From Draconibacterium sediminis (GTDB taxonomy: Bacteria > Bacteroidota > Bacteroidia > Bacteroidales > Prolixibacteraceae), in the NCBI RefSeq assembly GCF_000949475.1, contig NZ_JRHC01000003.1, positions 62,001-126,000 on the forward strand: 64,000 nucleotides of DNA, written 5' to 3'. The first letter of the stretch is position 1. Every line of letters starts with the position of its first letter. The notes under the pieces were generated by a model that did not search any database, was not told where the DNA came from, and was given only the letters and a program-made list of their open reading frames with translations. Positions 44,608 through 53,674 of the stretch are shown piece after piece. Made by a program: the position numbers and the translations under genes.

Positions 44608-45027
44608 ATGTCATACACAACAATTTGGCTCCATTGTGTTTGGTCTACAAAAAATCGTGAATGTATCATTTCGAATACCTTTCGACCTGTTCTTCTTAAT
44701 CATATAAGGGAAAAGGCAAGTGAAAAAGGTATTGTTCTCGATTACATTAATCTTCATAAAGATCATGTGCATGCACTAATAAATCTTGGTAGAAAACAGA
44801 CTATAGCAGATGTAATGCAGCAACTGAAAGGTGAGAGTTCGTATTGGATTAATAAAATGAATGTGATGCCGGTAAAATTTTATTGGCAGGATGATTATTT
44901 CGCTGTTTCAGTAAGTCAATCACATGTGGTGAGAGTGAGAGAATATATAAAAAATCAGGATGAACATCACAGAAGATTGACATGGGAAGACGAGGTTGAT
45001 CAGTTTTTCAAAAGATATAATTTTTAG
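44608..45027 (+). CDS. REP-associated tyrosine transposase (Y1/IS200-like, HUH)
   Basis: This is a 139-residue Y1 transposase. The HUH motif is His53-Val-His55 in KDHVHALINL and the catalytic Tyr113 is in VREYIKNQDEHH. The N-terminal strand IWLHCVWSTKNRE and the FYWQDDYFAVSVS segment are typical. These enzymes cut single-stranded DNA at hairpin ends. The full motif set and unbroken frame suggest the protein is functional. Because it is bracketed by REP-like hairpins, it is better read as a RAYT than as a free IS. Confidence 0.92.
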   Translation: MSYTTIWLHCVWSTKNRECIISNTFRPVLLNHIREKASEKGIVLDYINLHKDHVHALINLGRKQTIADVMQQLKGESSYWINKMNVMPVKFYWQDDYFAVSVSQSHVVRVREYIKNQDEHHRRLTWEDEVDQFFKRYNF

Positions 45028-45244: not shown

Positions 45245-46309
45245 TTAGTTCTTTTCGATCCAGTGAGCGATCCAGTCGCCAACTGCCGATGTACTTTGTG
45301 CCGGTCCTTCAGCAATGTCTTCGGTAACAAAACCTTCAGCCATTGACGCTGCAACAGCATCGCGGATCAATTTACCTTCTTCTTTCAGGTCGAAAGCATA
45401 TTCGAACATCATGGCTGCCGAAAGGATGGTTGCAATTGGATTAGCAATGTTTTTACCTGCAGCCTGCGGATATGAACCGTGGATGGGCTCGAATACCGAA
45501 GTGTGGATACCAACCGATGCAGAAGGCAGCAATCCAAGCGATCCGGTAATTACACTGGCCTCGTCGGTAAGAATATCACCAAACATGTTTTCAGTTACCA
45601 TTACATCAAAGTTCTTTGGCCACTGAATAATTTGCATTGCAGCATTATCCACAAACATGTACTCTGTTTGGATATCAGGATAATTTGGAGCCATTTCCTG
45701 GGCAACTTCACGCCATAAACGCGAGCTTTCCAATACGTTGGCTTTGTCAACCACAGTAAGTTTTTTGTTGCGTTTGGCAGCAAATTCGTAACCCAGTTTC
45801 AAGATACGCTCAACTTCTTCGCGAGTGTAAATACAAGTGTCGAAAGCCGTATTTCCATCGTCTTTACGACCTTTTTCGCCGAAATACATTCCACCGGTTA
45901 ATTCGCGGATGCAAACAAAATCAGCACCTTCAACCAATTCGCGGCGAAGTGGCGATTTGTGCAACAACGATTCAAAAGTTTCTACCGGGCGGATGTTGGC
46001 ATATAGTCCCAACTTCTTACGCATGGCCAGCAATCCCTGCTCAGGACGAACCGGCGCTTTTGGGTTGTTGTCGAATTTTGGGTCGCCAATAGCACCAAAA
46101 AGCACAGCATCCGATTTCATACACAATTCGTGCGTTTCTTCCGGATACGGATCTCCAACTGTGTCGATGGCAATGGCACCTGTTAGTGCCTCGGTGTATT
46201 CTAATTCGTGATTAAATTTATTTGCAACAGCTTTCACTGCTTTCATGGCCTGATCAACTATTTCAGGACCAATCCCGTCGCCGGGCAATAATGCAATGTT
46301 AAGTTTCAT
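45245..46309 (-). CDS. leuB: 3-isopropylmalate dehydrogenase
   Basis: This protein has 354 residues with start ATG 46309 ([17 protein letters not shown]). It is a beta-decarboxylating dehydrogenase that oxidises 3-isopropylmalate to 2-oxoisocaproate precursor with NAD+. Motifs: the substrate loop [39 protein letters not shown], and the NAD-binding [18 protein letters not shown]. It is last in the leu operon, 48 bp after the cimA-like gene. Confidence 0.96.
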
Positions 46310-46357
46310 TTTCTTAAAAGTTTTCGGACACACAAAACTGCAGGTCCGAGGTCGTTT

Positions 46358-47938
46358 TTATTTTTCGTTTTTTAATTCTTCCAGTTTTGTGGAGTTGAAC
46401 TCGTTTTCAATAATGTTCAACATTCGGGTTGTTGCCAGAATTGCAGCGGCGTTCTGATCAGGATGCAAACCTTTAGTCTTAAATTCGTGATCGTTGCGCC
46501 AGGTAATAACTGTTTCAACCAGGGCATTGGTGTTACCGCCCGGAGGAATGGTTACCACATAGTCAACCAGCATCGGGAATGCTTTGTCGAGACGTTCATA
46601 AATCTTCCGCAAAGCTTTTACAAATGCGTCGTATTGTCCGTCGCCATCGCTGTATTCCTCGTAAATCTTTCCGTCAATTTCAAGCGAAACATTGGCCATC
46701 GGGCGCAAACCCATAGTGTAACTTATCGAGTAATTCACCACTTTTACACGTTGATCAAAAAGATCATTCTCCAGAACATCGGCAACAATGTATGGCAACT
46801 CGTCGCTGGTGATGGTTTCTTTTTGGTCGGCCAGTTCAATAACCTTATCGGTAACTTTTTTCAGCGATTCTTTGTCCAGCTCAATGCCAAGGTCTTCCAG
46901 GTTCTTTCTGATGTTGGCTTTGCCCGAAGTTTTTCCCAAAGCGTACTGGCGTGTCCGGCCAAAACGTTCCGGTAGCAAGTCGTTGAAATACAGATTGTTT
47001 TTACTGTCGCCGTCGGCATGAATTCCGCTACATTGGGTAAACACAAATTCACCAATCAATGGTTTGTTGGTTGGAATACGAATTCCAGAAAATGATTCAA
47101 CCAGTTTCGAAACCTTATTTAACTGAGCTTCATTCACACGGGTTTTCATTTTCAGGTGATCTTTTATGGTGGCAATAACACTCGAAAGGGGAGCGTTACC
47201 GGCACGTTCACCCAGTCCGTTAACCGTGGTGTGGATACAACGAATTCCGGCTTTAAGTGCATGAAATACGTTAGCAATGGCCAGGTCGTAGTCGTTGTGC
47301 GCATGAAAATCGAATTCTACGTCAGGAAAGCTTTCGATCATTTCGTGGCAGAAATCGTAAGTCTCGTCCGGATCGAGGATGCCTAATGTATCGGGAAGCA
47401 TAAAACGCTCCACCTTTTCATCTTTCAGGCTCGCTATCATAAAATGAACGTAGTCCTTTGAGCTGCGCATACCGTTCGACCAGTCTTCAAGGTAAATGTT
47501 TACCCTGATTCCCATTTCGTCGGCATAGTTTAGTACCTGTTTGATGTCGTCAACATGCTGTTCCGGCGTTTTCCGCAGTTGCTCGGTAACGTGTTTATAC
47601 GATCCCTTGCACAGCAGGTTAATCACTTTCCCTCCGGCTTTGGCAATCCACTCCAGCGAAATTTTTCCATCAACAAATCCAAGTACCTCAATTTTATCGA
47701 GGTGACCTTTCTGAGCCGCCCAATTCATTACCTTTTGAGTGCCTTTAAATTCTCCTTCCGACACCCTTGCCGAGGCAATTTCAATGCGGTCTACTTTCAC
47801 ATCCTCAAGCAGCACCTTGGCTACACTTAGTTTTTCCCCTTCGCTGAACGAAACCCCGGAGGTTTGTTCTCCATCGCGAAGGGTGGTATCCATAATGGTC
47901 AGGCGCTTACCTGAAATTTCTACTGCTTTGCCTGTCAT
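46358..47938 (-). CDS. Citramalate synthase / 2-isopropylmalate synthase-like (LeuA2)
   Basis: This protein has about 526 residues with ATG 47938 chosen. A GTG 33 bp upstream is in frame but lies inside a hairpin. It is of the DRE-TIM metallolyase family: [37 protein letters not shown] (metal His pair) and a C-terminal LeuA-dimer regulatory domain (about 390-510, ending before LKNEK). It shares the operon with a true LeuA, so it probably makes (R)-citramalate from pyruvate for isoleucine, or is a second isopropylmalate synthase. Sequence motifs visible by eye do not decide. Confidence 0.85.
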   Translation of the reverse strand: MTGKAVEISGKRLTIMDTTLRDGEQTSGVSFSEGEKLSVAKVLLEDVKVDRIEIASARVSEGEFKGTQKVMNWAAQKGHLDKIEVLGFVDGKISLEWIAKAGGKVINLLCKGSYKHVTEQLRKTPEQHVDDIKQVLNYADEMGIRVNIYLEDWSNGMRSSKDYVHFMIASLKDEKVERFMLPDTLGILDPDETYDFCHEMIESFPDVEFDFHAHNDYDLAIANVFHALKAGIRCIHTTVNGLGERAGNAPLSSVIATIKDHLKMKTRVNEAQLNKVSKLVESFSGIRIPTNKPLIGEFVFTQCSGIHADGDSKNNLYFNDLLPERFGRTRQYALGKTSGKANIRKNLEDLGIELDKESLKKVTDKVIELADQKETITSDELPYIVADVLENDLFDQRVKVVNYSISYTMGLRPMANVSLEIDGKIYEEYSDGDGQYDAFVKALRKIYERLDKAFPMLVDYVVTIPPGGNTNALVETVITWRNDHEFKTKGLHPDQNAAAILATTRMLNIIENEFNSTKLEELKNEK

Positions 47939-47960
47939 TTTTGTCTGTCTGTTATGTATA

Positions 47961-47987
47961 GAGGGCTTCACAATCGGTGAAACCCTC
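47961..47987 (-). repeat. Hairpin at the leuD-cimA junction
   Basis: On the minus strand GAGGGTTTCAC and GTGAAGCCCTC pair over 11 bp (one G-T) around a 5-nt loop. There is no T-run, so it may mark an RNA processing or stability site inside the operon. It also covers the alternative GTG start of the downstream gene. Confidence 0.6.
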
Positions 47988-47994
47988 CATAGAT

Positions 47995-48582
47995 TTAAGC
48001 CTGTTCAAATTCTGCTATTTGATCCTTCATTTCAACGAGGTAGTCGATATCGTCCAATCCGTTTTGCAAACAATGCTTTTTGTACGGATTGATCTCGAAA
48101 TCAGTCGACTCACCAGTAGCTGTTATGGTGAATTTTTGATTTGGAAGATCGACTTCAAAAGTTGAATCTGCATCTTTTTCTATCTGATCAAAGATTTTCT
48201 CAAGGAACTCTGGTGAAACAACAACCGGTAACAGTCCGTTGTTCAATGCATTTCCTTTAAAAATGTCGGCGAAAAAGCTTGAAACCACTACACGGAAACC
48301 ATAATCGTAGATGGCCCATGCGGCGTGCTCGCGGCTCGATCCGCTACCAAAGTTTTTACCGCCAACCAGGATTTTACCTGAATATTTTGGGTTGTTCAAC
48401 GGGAAATCAGCCTTCGGACTTCCATCGTTTTCATACCGCCAGTCGCGGAAAAGGTTATCGCCAAATCCTTTACGTTCAACTGCTTTCAGGAAACGTGCAG
48501 GAATGATCTGGTCGGTATCTACATTTTCGTAGGGCAGAGGTACTGCCGAAGTATTTATTATTGAAAATTTATCGTATGCCAT
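47995..48582 (-). CDS. leuD: 3-isopropylmalate dehydratase small subunit
   Basis: This 195-residue aconitase swivel-domain protein contains [20 protein letters not shown] and [20 protein letters not shown], the substrate-binding signature of LeuD. It pairs with LeuC, encoded immediately upstream (84-bp gap), to isomerise 2- to 3-isopropylmalate. The gap between them contains a degenerate run of GCGC- and AGAGTGCT-like words. Confidence 0.96.
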
Positions 48583-48666: not shown

Positions 48667-50067
48667 CTACATCATTTCTCTTGGGTCAGCAATAACACCT
48701 GAAACTGCTGCTGCTGCTGCAGTTAACGGGCTGGCAAGCAAAGTACGGGCACCCGGTCCCTGGCGGCCTTCAAAGTTTCTGTTCGAAGTTGATACCGAAT
48801 ATTTACCTGTAGGTATTTTATCGTCGTTCATTGCCAGACATGCTGAACACCCCGGTTGACGCAATTCAAAACCTGCTTCCTCTAATATTGGAACAAGTCC
48901 TTCTGCTTCAATCTGGTTTTGCACTGCTTTTGATCCCGGTACCAACCATGCAGTAACGTTGTCGGCTTTTTTCTTTCCTTTTACAAAAGCGGCAAATTCG
49001 CGGAAGTCTTCGATACGGCCGTTGGTACAGCTTCCCAGGAATACGAAATCAACCGGTTTGCCTTTCATGGCATCGCCTTCGTTGTATCCCATGTATTGCA
49101 ACGATTTCTGATACGTTGTTTTATCTGTTCCTGACAAACCTTCCGATGTTGGAATCGTCTGCGAAACACCAATTCCCATTCCCGGGTTGGTTCCGTAAGT
49201 GATCATCGGCTCAATATCAGCAGCATCAAAAGTGTAATCCGTATCAAAAACTGCATCTTCGTCTGATTTTAACTCCGCCCATTTTTCCATGGCTTTGTCC
49301 CATTCTTCACCTTTTGGTGCAAACTGACGACCTTTTACGTAGTTGAAAGTTGTTTCATCGGGGGCGATCATACCACCGCGGGCACCACTTTCAATACTCA
49401 GGTTACAAAGTGTCATACGGCCTTCCATCGACAGGCTGGTGATTGCCGAACCTGCATACTCGATAAAGTGACCGGTACCACCACTGGTTGAAATTTTAGA
49501 AATAATGTAAAGAGCAATATCCTTTGCAGTTACACCTTTATCTAAAGTACCGTTAACGGTGATGCGCATTTTCTTTGGTTTAGGCTGCATAATACACTGG
49601 CTGGCCAAAACCATTTCCACTTCGCTGGTACCAATACCAAAAGCAATGGCTCCAAAAGCTCCGTGTGTAGAAGTGTGACTGTCGCCACAAACGATGGTCA
49701 TTCCCGGCTGGGTTAATCCCATTTCGGGGCCGATAATGTGCACCACACCGTGACCTTCAGTTCCCAGTCCGTGATAAACGATACCGTTTTCATCGCAGTT
49801 CTTTTTCAACATGTCAACCTGGTTGCGCGAAAGTTCGTCTTTAATCGACAGGTGCTGGTTGATAGTAGGTACGTTATGGTCGGGGGTAGCTGTGGTCTGA
49901 TCCGGACGATATACTTTCAATCCGCGGTTTTTCAATCCTAAAAAGGCAACCGGACTCGTTACTTCATGAATAAAGTGACGGTCGATATACAATACATTTG
50001 GGCCACCTTCAACCTTCTTCACCACGTGTGCATCCCAAATTTTATCAAATAATGTTTTTGCTGTCAT
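48667..50067 (-). CDS. leuC: 3-isopropylmalate dehydratase large subunit
   Basis: This protein has 466 residues with start ATG 50067 ([16 protein letters not shown]). It is an aconitase-family Fe-S enzyme: [20 protein letters not shown], and the [4Fe-4S] ligand motifs [14 protein letters not shown] and [10 protein letters not shown]. Length is typical for LeuC. It may also handle citramalate if the downstream synthase is CimA (known for LeuCD in other bacteria). Confidence 0.96.
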
Positions 50068-50142
50068 GATTTCTTTCCATCTATTATATGGATTCAACTT
50101 TTATTCTTTTTAACACTCATTCCCCTGCTCCTTCGTCGCATT

Positions 50143-50199: not shown

Positions 50200-51705
50200 T
50201 TACAATGCTGCCGGTAATTTATTGATGGCATCCAAAAAGGCCTCAACCGAAGCAGTAATAATATCGGTGTGTGCACCAAATCCATGATAGATTCCGTCTT
50301 CGTATTCCACCTGCATGTGTACTTTACCAATATCATCGCTTCCGCGGGTAATGGCCTGTACCAGGAATTCCTCGATAACAACCTGACGATGAATGATCTT
50401 TTTAACCGCTTTAATGGCTGCGTCAACCGGACCGTTTCCATCCGAAGTGGCATCGAATTTTTCTCCTGAAATATTCAGACGAACTGTTGCCATTGGTTTT
50501 AAACTTTTTCCGGTAACAACCTGTAAGTAATCCAACTTAATACGGTGCTCCTTGCGCGTTGCATCGCCAACCAACAACGCGATATCGTCATCACGGATGT
50601 CTTTTTTCTTGTCGGCCAATTTCAAAAACTCTTCGTAAACTTCGTCAAGCTTTTCTTTGTCCAATTCGAAACCTAATAACTCTAAACGGTGTTTCAACGC
50701 GGCGCGGCCACTTCGGGCAGTCAATAAAATTGCCGATTCGTTGATACCCACTTCTACCGGATCCATGATCTCGTAGTTCTCGCGGTTTTTCAACACGCCA
50801 TCCTGGTGGATACCTGATGAGTGAGCAAAAGCATTACGTCCAACAACAGCTTTGTTTGGCTGAACAGGCATGTTCATTAAAGTAGAAACCAAACGGCTTG
50901 TTCCGTAAATTTTCTTAGTATTTACACCGGTTTCAATTCCCAGTGTTTTGTAATGCGTTTTCAAAGTCATTACCACTTCCTCTAAAGAAGTGTTACCCGC
51001 ACGTTCGCCAATACCGTTAATGGTAACCTCTGCCTGGCGTGCACCATTCAGGATTCCTGAAATAGTGTTCGCAGTTGCCATTCCCAAATCGTTATGACAG
51101 TGCGTTGAAATAATCGCTTTATGAATATTAGGCACGTTGTCAACCAGGTATTTGATTTTTGCACCAAATTCGTGTGGCAAGGTGTAACCGGTAGTGTCGG
51201 GAATATTTACAACCGTAGCACCGGCTTTAATTACTGCCTCAATTACGCGGGCCAGGTACTCGTTATCGGTACGGCCGGCATCTTCAGCGTAAAACTCTAC
51301 ATCTTCAACGTATTTTTTTGCGTATTTCACCGCCTCAACACCACGCTCGATAATGGCATCGGGATTTGAGTTGAGTTTGTGGTAAATATGAAAGTCAGAT
51401 GTTCCGATTCCGGTGTGGATACGACCTTTTTTGGCGTACTTGAGTGATTCGGCTGCAACATCAATATCTTTTTGTACTGCGCGGGTTAAGGCTGTAATCG
51501 TTGGCCATGTAACCGCTTTCGAAATCTCTACTACCGATTCAAAATCGCCGGGGCTCGAAATGGGGAATCCTGCTTCAATTACATCAACTCCCAATTCCTG
51601 CAAAGCTTTGGCAACTTCAATCTTTTCTACCGTGTTCAACTGGCAACCGGGGACCTGTTCACCGTCCCTCAAAGTTGTGTCGAAAATGTAAAGTCTGTCG
51701 CTCAT
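50200..51705 (-). CDS. leuA: 2-isopropylmalate synthase
   Basis: This 501-residue DRE-TIM enzyme condenses acetyl-CoA with 2-oxoisovalerate, the first step of leucine synthesis. [17 protein letters not shown] and [17 protein letters not shown] are the catalytic and metal-binding motifs. [17 protein letters not shown] and [18 protein letters not shown] follow. A C-terminal regulatory LeuA-dimer domain (about 365-500) allows leucine feedback. It is first structural gene after the attenuator. Confidence 0.95.
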
Positions 51706-51760: not shown

Positions 51761-51791
51761 AAAAAAGCCATCCTCAATGTGAGAATGGCTT
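51761..51791 (-). terminator. Attenuator terminator of the leu operon
   Basis: On the minus strand AAGCCATTCTCA (51791-51780) pairs with TGAGGATGGCTT (51776-51765) over 12 bp with one T-G wobble around a CAT loop, followed by six T's. It lies before leuA, where a constitutive terminator would silence the operon, so it must be conditional. Confidence 0.85.
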
Positions 51792-51828
51792 CTTTATTCC
51801 AATATCGTTAATCAACACACCATTCTCA
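51780..51828 (-). promoter_or_regulatory. Antiterminator pairing of the leu attenuator
   Basis: On the minus strand TGAGAATGG (51828-51820), which begins with the leader-peptide stop codon, is exactly complementary to CCATTCTCA (51788-51780), part of the terminator 5' arm. The two structures are mutually exclusive: a ribosome at the leader stop covers TGAGAATGG and lets the terminator form, whereas a ribosome stalled on upstream Leu codons leaves it free to antiterminate. Confidence 0.82.
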
Positions 51829-51897
51829 TTTCTGTCTTGTTAGAAGAAGAATACCAATGAGGAGGTTAAGAATAGAAATGTTGATATTTTTTGTCAT
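51826..51897 (-). CDS. leuL: leu operon leader peptide (23 residues, Leu/Ile-rich)
   Basis: This short ORF upstream of leuA begins MTKNINIS and ends LLLTRQK, with ILNLLIGI between them. Eleven of 23 residues are Leu (six, codons CTT, CTC and CTA) or Ile (five), including a run of three Leu codons six residues before the C-terminus. It is placed exactly where an attenuator leader should be, 120 bp before leuA, and its TGA stop is part of the antiterminator arm. It is too small for routine gene calling. The Ile content suggests that isoleucine shortage may also relieve attenuation. Confidence 0.85.
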   Translation of the reverse strand: MTKNINISILNLLIGILLLTRQK

Positions 51898-51914
51898 TTG
51901 CTTATGATTTCCTG

Positions 51915-51922
51915 CAAATATG
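51915..51922 (-). promoter_or_regulatory. Possible -7 box of the leu operon promoter
   Basis: CATATTTG on the minus strand is one mismatch from TAnnTTTG and lies 18 bp before the leader peptide ATG. No clear -33 TTG was found, so this is only a suggestion. The rest of 51,923-52,084 is AT-rich and then holds a degenerate CAGTGAC/CAGTC-rich tract next to the OstA stop. Confidence 0.3.
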
Positions 51923-52084: not shown

Positions 52085-53674
52085 CTATTGACCAGTGACT
52101 TCTTCTGTTGCCTCTTCCTCAATCACCTCTTTCTTCTCAGGGCGCCAGAAAATATCTTTTTTAGAAAGCGGGCGCAGTTTTATTTTCCACTCGAAACCCG
52201 GTAATGTTTTCTCGCTATCTTCCAGTTTTAGAATTGGTTTTAACTGCCCTTCAGGTTGTTTTTGAAATGCAATGGCATCAATCTTTCCTTCTTTAAACCG
52301 TATACTGATATTGCTGCTTTCTGCTCTGTTCAGCCCGATAATGGCTTCTTTGTCGCGTGCATAATACAGGGTTTGCCCGTTACCATCCACATCAATATTG
52401 CGTAGTTTGCCGTTAACAATGTAGCCGGTCATGTCCTTGCCTTTAATCTGATCGAAGCGCCCCGAGTCCTGTTTCGAAATGATAAAACTGTTTTTCATCA
52501 TATGCATTTCGTTGGGAGCGGTAGTGTGCTGAATCATTTCAATATAGTCGGCACTGAGTTGGTGTTGCTCGCTCCAAATTACCGGGTTGCTGTGCATTTG
52601 AACCAGCGAGTCTTTGGTGAAATACATCAGCGAATCGCAAAGCCCCTGTATGTCGGTTCTGAAAAAACGAACACCATAATAGGCCATCACAATATTTTCG
52701 CCATCAATGGTGTCAGGGATACTTTTTAAGGTGTCGGCGTGCAGGAACAGGCTGTCGGCTTCGCTGTACGAAATAAAAACCGCCGAATCGGTGGCTATCG
52801 CCGTTTCTTTTGTTTCGTTGTAAATTACCTTGTTTCCCTGAATTATGGTTTGGTTTTCAAAGTCTTCGATATGTACGTTTCCCTCGGCATAACCATCGCC
52901 ATTTTCTTTATTATAGCTTATTTGTCGGGCGGTTAAAAGTTGCGTTTCGTTAAATACGCTTGGCATTTCTTTCAGATCGGCCTCGCCGGTTAGGGTGTTG
53001 TACCAACCATCTTCGGCATAAAGGGTATTCACCGAATCGCGTATGGTCGTTGGCCCTTTAAAATAGATAACCTCGGTTTGCGTATTGTAGCGCAGATCTT
53101 CGCTGTTGATGGTATACTTATCAGAGAAACCAACAACGCTGTCGGTAAAATGTGCTTCGTTATTGTCGAGGTAATATTTCCCCACTTTGCTGGTAAGTGT
53201 GTTGGTGCTGTCAACAATTTTCCCGAAACAATCGTAGTAGCCAACGTTCAGGTTCATGTCGTAATCCAGTGTGTCGGTGTAAAGCGTTACCTCGTTATTC
53301 ACCAGCTTTACATTTTTTATGGCCTGTGCAAAACTACGGTCGCCATCGTAATACACTTTTCGCGCATAAAGGTGCAGCGTGTCGCCCTTGTTAATGTGTA
53401 CGTTGCCAAAAGCATCTACGCGGTTTGATTGATCGTAAGTGTACGCGCTGTCGCAATACATCAGAATATCTTCATGCTTAATGATTACGTCGTTGATCAG
53501 GCGCTGGGCATTGGCAACATTTTCGCCTTGTTCCAATGTTTCAGCCTGAATGATTTCCACACGTTTCTTTTCCTGCGCGAATCCTTTTGTTGCTGTAAAC
53601 AGAAGGAAAAGGAAGAAAATTGCAGGAGTTAATTTGCGCAAAGTAGCGCTGGTATTAATACGGTAAAAAGACAT
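52085..53674 (-). CDS. OstA-like protein (LptA/OstA_2 domain)
   Basis: This 529-residue exported protein has a signal peptide ending KGFAQ. Repeated beta-jellyroll turns typical of OstA/LptA run through it: DVIIKHEDILMYCDSAYTYD, NRVDAFGNVHINKGDTLHLY, YAEGNVHIEDFENQTII and similar. The family shuttles lipopolysaccharide across the periplasm. Its start overlaps the MoxR stop by 1 nt (TAATG). Context with SurA-type isomerases supports an outer-membrane biogenesis role. Confidence 0.88.
   Translation of the reverse strand: MSFYRINTSATLRKLTPAIFFLFLLFTATKGFAQEKKRVEIIQAETLEQGENVANAQRLINDVIIKHEDILMYCDSAYTYDQSNRVDAFGNVHINKGDTLHLYARKVYYDGDRSFAQAIKNVKLVNNEVTLYTDTLDYDMNLNVGYYDCFGKIVDSTNTLTSKVGKYYLDNNEAHFTDSVVGFSDKYTINSEDLRYNTQTEVIYFKGPTTIRDSVNTLYAEDGWYNTLTGEADLKEMPSVFNETQLLTARQISYNKENGDGYAEGNVHIEDFENQTIIQGNKVIYNETKETAIATDSAVFISYSEADSLFLHADTLKSIPDTIDGENIVMAYYGVRFFRTDIQGLCDSLMYFTKDSLVQMHSNPVIWSEQHQLSADYIEMIQHTTAPNEMHMMKNSFIISKQDSGRFDQIKGKDMTGYIVNGKLRNIDVDGNGQTLYYARDKEAIIGLNRAESSNISIRFKEGKIDAIAFQKQPEGQLKPILKLEDSEKTLPGFEWKIKLRPLSKKDIFWRPEKKEVIEEEATEEVTGQ

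Follow-up and report, generated by a model that had tools for sequence, protein, structure and literature searches.

The region upstream of leuA on the minus strand of Draconibacterium sediminis very probably controls transcription by ribosome-mediated attenuation, with charged tRNA-Leu, and probably also charged tRNA-Ile, as the sensed signal. The assignment is drawn from sequence features: a leader that behaves as coding, mutually exclusive 2:3 and 3:4 pairings, a covarying 1:2 helix, and the conservation of these elements. Ribosome-mediated attenuation had been proposed in an earlier sequence-only reading of the window (the whole 64,000-nucleotide stretch of DNA analyzed here), and the proposal gains support from 39 of the 40 loci of the clade, from the coding character of the leader, and from the spacing between the control codons and the antiterminator arm.

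Architecture of the leader region

The leader is followed on its 3' side by leuA, leuC, leuD, a CimA/LeuA-like gene, and leuB, in this order (Table 1). The product of the CimA/LeuA-like gene is likely to be a citramalate synthase, but this identity is not established, because its score against NF042433, the Leptospira CimA model, is under the cut-off. A promoter-like block, [CGA]ATATTTG[CT], is present ahead of the leader in 35 of 37 clade sequences. We take the TAnnTTTG-type consensus to be the −7 promoter region of Bacteroidota and assign a putative promoter to this block; transcription would start a few nucleotides past it, giving a short 5' untranslated region before the leader ATG. No Shine-Dalgarno-like stretch was found at the usual spacing from this ATG, and an AGGA is located approximately 12 nt ahead of it. 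Translation initiation in Bacteroidota proceeds largely without Shine-Dalgarno sequences.

Table 1. Features of the attenuator region and the leu operon (positions in the window)
Feature	Position	Strand	Basis or remark
OstA/LptA-like upstream gene	52085-53674		end 187 nt ahead of leader
Putative promoter −7 region CATATTTGC, Bacteroidota type	51914..51922	-	conserved block in clade alignments
Leader peptide ORF MTKNINISILNLLIGILLLTRQK, 23 sense codons, stop TGA 51828-51826	51826..51897	-	sequence and pN/pS
Segment 1, outer, 5' strand ATCAACAT, codons 5 to 7	51878..51885	-	pairs with 51811-51818
Segment 1, inner, TATTCTT at control codons	51847..51853	-	pairable with GAGAATG of arm 2
Control codon cluster Ile16-Leu17-Leu18-Leu19 (ATT CTT CTT CTA)	51841..51852	-	codon conservation and spacing
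Segment 2, antiterminator arm TGAGAATGG, opening with the three bases of the leader stop codon	51820..51828	-	pairs with 51780-51788
Outer 1:2 helix, 3' strand GTGTTGAT, just past arm 2	51811..51818	-	covariation
AACGATATT element, candidate RNA polymerase pause site	51801..51809	-	common to his leader, partly first trp leader
Segment 3, terminator 5' arm AAGCCATTCTCA	51780..51791	-	core GCCATTCTC in 37/37 aligned loci
Segment 4, terminator 3' arm TGAGGATGGCTT	51765..51776	-	94.9% of cells paired
Terminator T-run, expected 3' end of attenuated transcript	51761..51766	-	sequence
leuA, 2-isopropylmalate synthase, first structural gene	50200..51705	-	TIGR00973 686 bits, cut-off 598.7
leuC (longest ORF; start codon not settled)	48667..50097	-	TIGR00170 662 bits, cut-off 560
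leuD	47995..48582	-	TIGR00171 197 bits, cut-off 116
CimA/LeuA-like acyltransferase	46358..47971	-	best NCBIfam NF042433 (CimA) 674 bits, cut-off 950
leuB, 3-isopropylmalate dehydrogenase	45245..46333	-	TIGR00169 456 bits, cut-off 353

The 23-codon ORF with six Leu and five Ile codons described in the sequence-only reading is present exactly as described, with its ATG at 51897. The window contains 994 ORFs of 15–35 codons on both strands; 8 of them have a Leu plus Ile content of at least 45%, and 9 have, no more than 95 nt downstream, a terminator hairpin at −10 kcal/mol or below. The two properties coincide in a single ORF, namely the leuA leader. Across 25 distinct 23-codon leaders, pN/pS was 0.52 in the reading frame of the leader but 1.57 and 1.43 in the two other frames, which argues that the leader evolves as a coding sequence under protein-level selection. 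Ile7, Ser8, Gly15, and Leu18 were unchanged in all 25, while codon 16 was Ile in 24 and codon 19 was Leu in 22. Leu and Ile were exchanged for one another at codons 9, 13, 14, and 17, and codons 20–23 were variable. In clade leaders, Leu accounts for 26% and Ile for 25% of the residues, compared with 9.0% and 7.8% in window genes (30 long ORFs); leaders outside the clade contain 20% and 21%. The region thus carries a short, translated-looking ORF rich in codons for the amino acid of the operon.

An intrinsic terminator separates the leader ORF from the first structural gene. It consists of 12 pairs (13 with a G-U pair in the predicted fold) and a loop of 3. The earlier description of a 12-bp hairpin with six T's is correct, with two of these T's belonging to the stem; its placement "just before leuA" is loose, because the end of the terminator is 55 nt from the leuA ATG at 51705. 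Compared with shuffled sequences, the z-scores of the separately folded stretches were −5.1 for the terminator, −4.7 for the antiterminator, and −2.95 for the 1:2 stretch; that of the whole leader was −3.5. Among the clade sequences, the core of arm 4 opposite arm 3 showed A/G variation opposite U and a single broken cell; only 15 of 36 sequences form the apical pair, and two pairs of the terminator carried double changes (3 cells).

The perfect 9-bp pairing claimed between TGAGAATGG (51828-51820) and CCATTCTCA (51788-51780) was found without any mismatch. By sharing arm 3 with the terminator, this predicted antiterminator excludes it. In 36 distinct clade sequences, 99.4% of the antiterminator cells were paired. 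Substitutions in arm 2 were restricted to A to G opposite U, apart from those in L032, and one base is missing in L037. No cell showed a double compensatory change; therefore, covariation neither proves nor disproves the 2:3 pairing. One-sided changes are expected of a strand that serves two partners. In 38 of 39 clade leaders and in 24 of 32 leaders outside the clade, no more than 5 of 100 shuffles yielded an arm-2/arm-3 duplex as good as the best native one.

Our analysis also revealed an outer 1:2 helix that was absent from the sequence-only reading. Its cells pair in 88% of cases. Five of its 8 pairs were changed on both sides, a number reached by 1 of 500 shuffles, and 11 cells were changed on both sides, a number reached by none of 500 shuffles (kinship was ignored in both comparisons). 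Over the control codons, the inner pairing of segments 1 and 2 was formed in 94.8% of cells, a +3 slide also pairs in 88%, and no covariation beyond that of shuffles was detected in this inner pairing. An upstream pairing with arm 2 outperformed shuffles in 26 of 34 clade leaders and in 10 of 24 others. The predicted fold also suggests a hairpin that would join the GATAT element to the 3' strand of the 1:2 helix; its covariation was not convincing.

Conservation among relatives and position of the control codons

We compared 156 leuA upstream regions, comprising 30 + 17 + 29 loci of relatives and 80 loci from named organisms; a few genomes are represented twice, such as L035 (Draconibacterium orientale) and L145. 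One of 48 leuA matches (G018), situated at a contig start, was left out, and a wider search, with matches in 159 genomes, contributed 29 new loci. The clade is defined here as 40 loci: 34 of the same GTDB genus and the 6 named loci nearest by LeuA (L034–L039), which are labelled Prolixibacteraceae, Draconibacterium, and one Odoribacter sp. The clade alignment has 37 rows, with the identical leader regions of L016, L145, and L146 merged. Leaders were accepted by a strict filter (Leu plus Ile of at least 33%, a strict hairpin, and a stop-to-stem distance of 0–60 nt) that passes over some visible leaders.

Of the 156 regions, 71 passed this filter; 39 came from the clade (40 loci) and 32 from the remaining 116 regions, a lower bound. 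An alignment of homologous leuA upstream regions had been suggested in the sequence-only reading as a check on the attenuator. This check bore the proposal out, with the leader and terminator retained in 39 of 40 loci and the arm-2 duplex in 38 of 39; the compensatory changes sought in both stems did not appear in the antiterminator, where changes were one-sided only. In two clade members the leader end differs: it is frameshifted in L034, and the stop codon is 4 nt early in L143. Leader-terminator units are also found before leuA in other families. Among 27 loci from outside the order (L116–L142), one (L126) passed the filter; the absence of leaders in this set says little, because several of the sequences preceding leuA look coding by eye.

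The single clade exception is L032, from a 2.2-Mb genome. In this locus, arm 2 and most of the linker are lost, the leader is broken, and the terminator hairpin is weakened to −9.7 kcal/mol; the hisG match of the same genome is only remote. L032 appears to be a natural loss of the leuA attenuator in a small genome.

The location of the stop codon inside the antiterminator arm had been described as an unusually compact arrangement. This arrangement is real and is kept in the clade, where 38 of 39 leaders place the start of arm 2 no more than 3 nt from the stop codon. It does not extend to 14 of the 32 accepted leaders outside the clade, in which the arm begins 18–29 nt ahead of the stop codon and most or all of arm 2 lies within the ORF. 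The position of the arm start relative to the stop codon ranges from +2 to −29 nt, a slide of about 30 nt. Since the arm is well ahead of the stop codon in these leaders, the stop codon within the arm is not essential. In Bacteroides- and Prevotella-type leaders (L048, L077, L079, and L114), the antiterminator arm lies within the ORF and encodes a Gly-Ser-Glu/Asp stretch close to the C-terminus.

The spacing between arm 2 and the final codon of the Leu/Ile cluster behaves differently from the stop codon. In D. sediminis, Leu19 starts 15 nt ahead of the arm. The median distance was 14 nt (SD 1.8) in 38 clade leaders and 15 nt (SD 4.8, middle half 14–19 nt) in 23 leaders outside the clade. With the widened definition of the cluster given below, the latter had distances of 2, 9, 12, 13 (six leaders), 14 (six), 15 (four), 16, 17, 20, and 26 nt, of which 2, 9, 20, and 26 nt are outliers from the rule. 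A spread as small was obtained in none of 20,000 permutations of the arm positions among these 23 leaders, with kinship ignored. The set of 23 was taken from the 32 accepted leaders by leaving out 8 with weak duplexes and 1 without a cluster, and the definition of the cluster was widened after the first distances had been seen, such that a Leu or Ile following one Arg was counted (as in IIIIRL).

The front edge of a ribosome is approximately 13–15 nt from its A site. With a distance of about 14 nt, a ribosome held up at the final Leu/Ile codon would just free arm 2, and one at or near the stop codon would cover it; the control codons are placed accordingly. We rank this codon-to-arm spacing as the strongest evidence for the attenuation mechanism. 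From the comparison of the aligned leaders, the stop codon inside the arm appears to be a habit of the clade, and the distance between the last Leu/Ile codon and the arm appears to be the conserved quantity.

Proposed mechanism and alternative explanations

We propose the following mechanism. Transcription would start just ahead of the leader. In the absence of a ribosome, the 1:2 helix would form, and nothing would hinder the 3:4 terminator. Under a shortage of Leu-tRNA (or Ile-tRNA), the ribosome would stall on codons 16–19 and cover segment 1, with its front edge just short of arm 2, so that the 2:3 antiterminator could form and RNA polymerase would read into leuA-leuC-leuD-cimA-like-leuB. 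With charged tRNAs available, the ribosome would reach the stop codon and cover arm 2, the 3:4 terminator would form, and transcription would end near 51761. This model needs coupling of transcription and translation. Such attenuation cannot work without coupling, and the leu attenuator would therefore offer a clean test of ribosome-RNA polymerase coupling in Bacteroidota, a subject on which no paper was found in the open-licence literature.

Leucine sensing is very likely, and isoleucine input is plausible. The latter had been suggested in the sequence-only reading from the citramalate-synthase-like gene of the operon; the frequency of Ile, which equals that of Leu, and the exchange of Leu and Ile codons now speak for it alongside that gene, all of these being properties of sequence. 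The same attenuator may instead sense Leu alone, with the Ile codons arising from AT-richness, hydrophobicity, or the pairing with arm 2. This is a serious possibility, although we consider it somewhat doubtful. Codon 18 is invariably Leu, and Leu is dominant at codons 17–19 in the clade. The synonymous bias is also much stronger for Leu, with CTT, CTC, and CTA making up 87% of Leu codons in clade leaders versus 32% in window genes, than for Ile, with ATT making up 78% of Ile codons in leaders versus 58% in window genes; in leaders outside the clade, CTA alone makes up 29% of Leu codons versus 7% in window ORFs. In contrast, the cluster of the non-clade leaders contains 76 Ile and 54 Leu residues, and some leaders read IIIIRL (L094 and L098). 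The citramalate route to Ile uses the products of leuBCD. Thus, leuBCD would also serve the synthesis of Ile if the CimA-like gene encodes a true citramalate synthase.

The four invariant residues of the clade leader (Ile7, Ser8, Gly15, and Leu18) are more than codon counting needs. They would be explained if the leader peptide itself stalled the ribosome in response to a small molecule, a drug, or a general slowing of translation, with the Leu and Ile codons not being the signal. We regard this explanation as very unlikely, since the peptide varies much in other families except for the Leu/Ile cluster and its spacing, leaders of the his and trp operons are rich in His and Trp, respectively, and the first two bases of codon 7 are within the covarying 1:2 helix.

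Slightly less credible again is an ordinary intergenic terminator of the OstA/LptA-like gene combined with a chance ORF, with the leuA promoter downstream of the terminator. The terminator does lie between two genes, and the upstream gene ends 187 nt ahead of the leader. However, the leader appears to be under protein-level selection and is preceded by the conserved promoter-like block, and a scan for sigma-70-type promoters, to which class the result applies, found nothing on the minus strand from 51761 to 51705. Conservation also extends to arm 2 and the outer 1:2 helix, and leader-terminator units recur in other families.

Control of the terminator by a metabolite riboswitch or a T-box-like tRNA-binding RNA, with an incidental ORF, would fit a conserved structured RNA ahead of an amino-acid operon, but we consider it extremely improbable given that the leader is coding and that the leader, T-box, and riboswitch families of Rfam gave no match above the gathering score in the whole window, nor did any other Rfam family.

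Seven sub-threshold Rfam matches (401 bases, E ≤ 10) were judged spurious, the best being human SNORA53 (E 0.0078, 20.9 of 38 bits). The best sub-threshold leader family was Phe_leader, with 18.2 of 55 bits.

Enteric leu, his, and trp attenuators combine a terminator and alternative pairings with a short ORF in which codons for the regulated amino acid abound. The Draconibacterium leader resembles them in its short cognate-rich ORF, its alternative pairings, and its terminator before the first structural gene. It differs from them in that it belongs to another phylum, scores below the Rfam cut-offs, mixes Leu and Ile codons, and has no Shine-Dalgarno-like stretch at the usual spacing.

The nearest functional parallel that we have seen is the ilv-leu leader of Staphylococcus aureus, which is Leu-rich and contains three Ile codons; passages of that study propose Leu-dependent attenuation and suggest an Ile input (PMC5794164). 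In contrast to the leader described here, it is located ahead of ilvD in a Firmicute, and the same passages place its operon also under CodY (PMC5794164).

Leader-peptide attenuation is a known kind of control that is little documented in Bacteroidota, and the literature that we found amounts to two short remarks. No paper on a leuA attenuator of Bacteroidota was found in the open-licence literature. For Flavobacterium psychrophilum, of the same phylum, strong clues for leader-peptide attenuation ahead of amino-acid biosynthesis operons have been mentioned, in main-text passages that detail no operon, sequence, or mechanism (PMC9723704). Passages on Bacteroides thetaiotaomicron, also of the same phylum, describe short ORFs in long 5' UTRs, where the example mRNA codes for a hypothetical protein and not for leuA (PMC7366714). 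In a 2010 survey, Naville and Gautheret stated that, as far as they knew, leader-peptide systems had been demonstrated in Proteobacteria and Actinobacteria alone, to which they added Firmicutes (PMC2965389). Passages of a survey of his genes in the superphylum mention attenuation for Salmonella and E. coli (PMC8305728).

His and Trp leaders and the GATAT element

The genome of D. sediminis also contains a leader before hisG (L165, contig C17): the peptide MTVTTLHHGHHWKNQPSGRL, with its ATG at 585, is followed by a terminator, and hisG starts at 726. A lenient ORF-plus-hairpin filter applied to the same relatives detected His leaders (at least 3 His) before hisG in 43 of 47 loci and Trp leaders (at least 3 Trp) before trpE in 41 of 47 loci; the loci compared were 47 of 50 for hisG and 47 of 53 for trpE. 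Two Trp leaders in tandem, NTIWLPWWGLL followed by a WWW leader, were present at 32 of the 47 trpE loci, with 82–101 nt from the first stop codon to the second ATG. In D. sediminis itself (L235, contig C1, minus strand), the tandem leaders are MQKINTIWLPWWGLLT and then MRTNNNIWWWHSNFLQIS. Hairpins with T-runs follow the first trp leader (by eye) and the second. These His and tandem Trp leaders suggest that the clade uses leader-peptide attenuation repeatedly. By eye, ilvC (KARI) of the same genome has no leader-terminator upstream.

The spacing rule of the leu leaders does not transfer directly to these operons. Among his leaders, 25 of 43 had a supported arm, and their last His codon was mostly 16–20 nt away from it; among trp leaders, 9 of 41 had a supported arm, and the distance was inconsistent. 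No clean antiterminator arm was found in the WWW trp leaders, where the best duplex often takes in the Trp codons themselves.

The leu, his, and first trp leaders have in common an AA(A/C)GATAT element between the leader stop codon and the terminator. Among distinct linkers, GATAT was present in 21 of 29 clade leu linkers (shuffled mean 4.1), 21 of 25 clade his linkers (shuffled mean 1.4), and 12 of 25 linkers of the first trp leader (shuffled mean 2.0). It was present in only 2 of 30 linkers of the WWW trp leader (shuffled mean 1.2), counted as the distinct linkers of all 38 such loci. The his set was limited to the clade; outside this test, GATAT was found in 2 of 12 non-clade his linkers (L180 and L181). 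The leu and his linkers of D. sediminis share a 9-base match, a length reached by 217 of 20,000 shuffled pairs. The element occupies what we take to be the place of the pause in enteric leaders, and it is a possible RNA polymerase pause site, which we offer as a lead. In the D. sediminis genome, ACGATATT plus a T-run gave 11 matches versus 7 for the reversed control, indicating that the element alone does not find attenuators; by eye, a leader accompanied the matches only at leu and his.

A conserved leu attenuator with His and Trp counterparts would supply a ready-made regulon in a phylum of major standing in the gut and the environment, and suggests how the synthesis of branched-chain amino acids, His, and Trp is controlled in Bacteroidota. 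In the broadest form of this proposal, Bacteroidota would possess a wide set of attenuators (leu/ile, his, and tandem trp) in which the distance between control codon and antiterminator, rather than the stop codon, serves as the ruler and an element of approximately AA(A/C)GATATT, placed between antiterminator and terminator, serves as a common pause. We advance this broad form tentatively and think it rather unlikely to hold as a whole; if true, it would imply that RNA polymerase and the ribosome advance together in Bacteroidota, despite their largely Shine-Dalgarno-independent initiation of translation.

Just past the leu operon, on the plus strand, a 139-aa ORF (44608-45027) has, judged from its translation by eye, the look of a small REP/IS200-type transposase.
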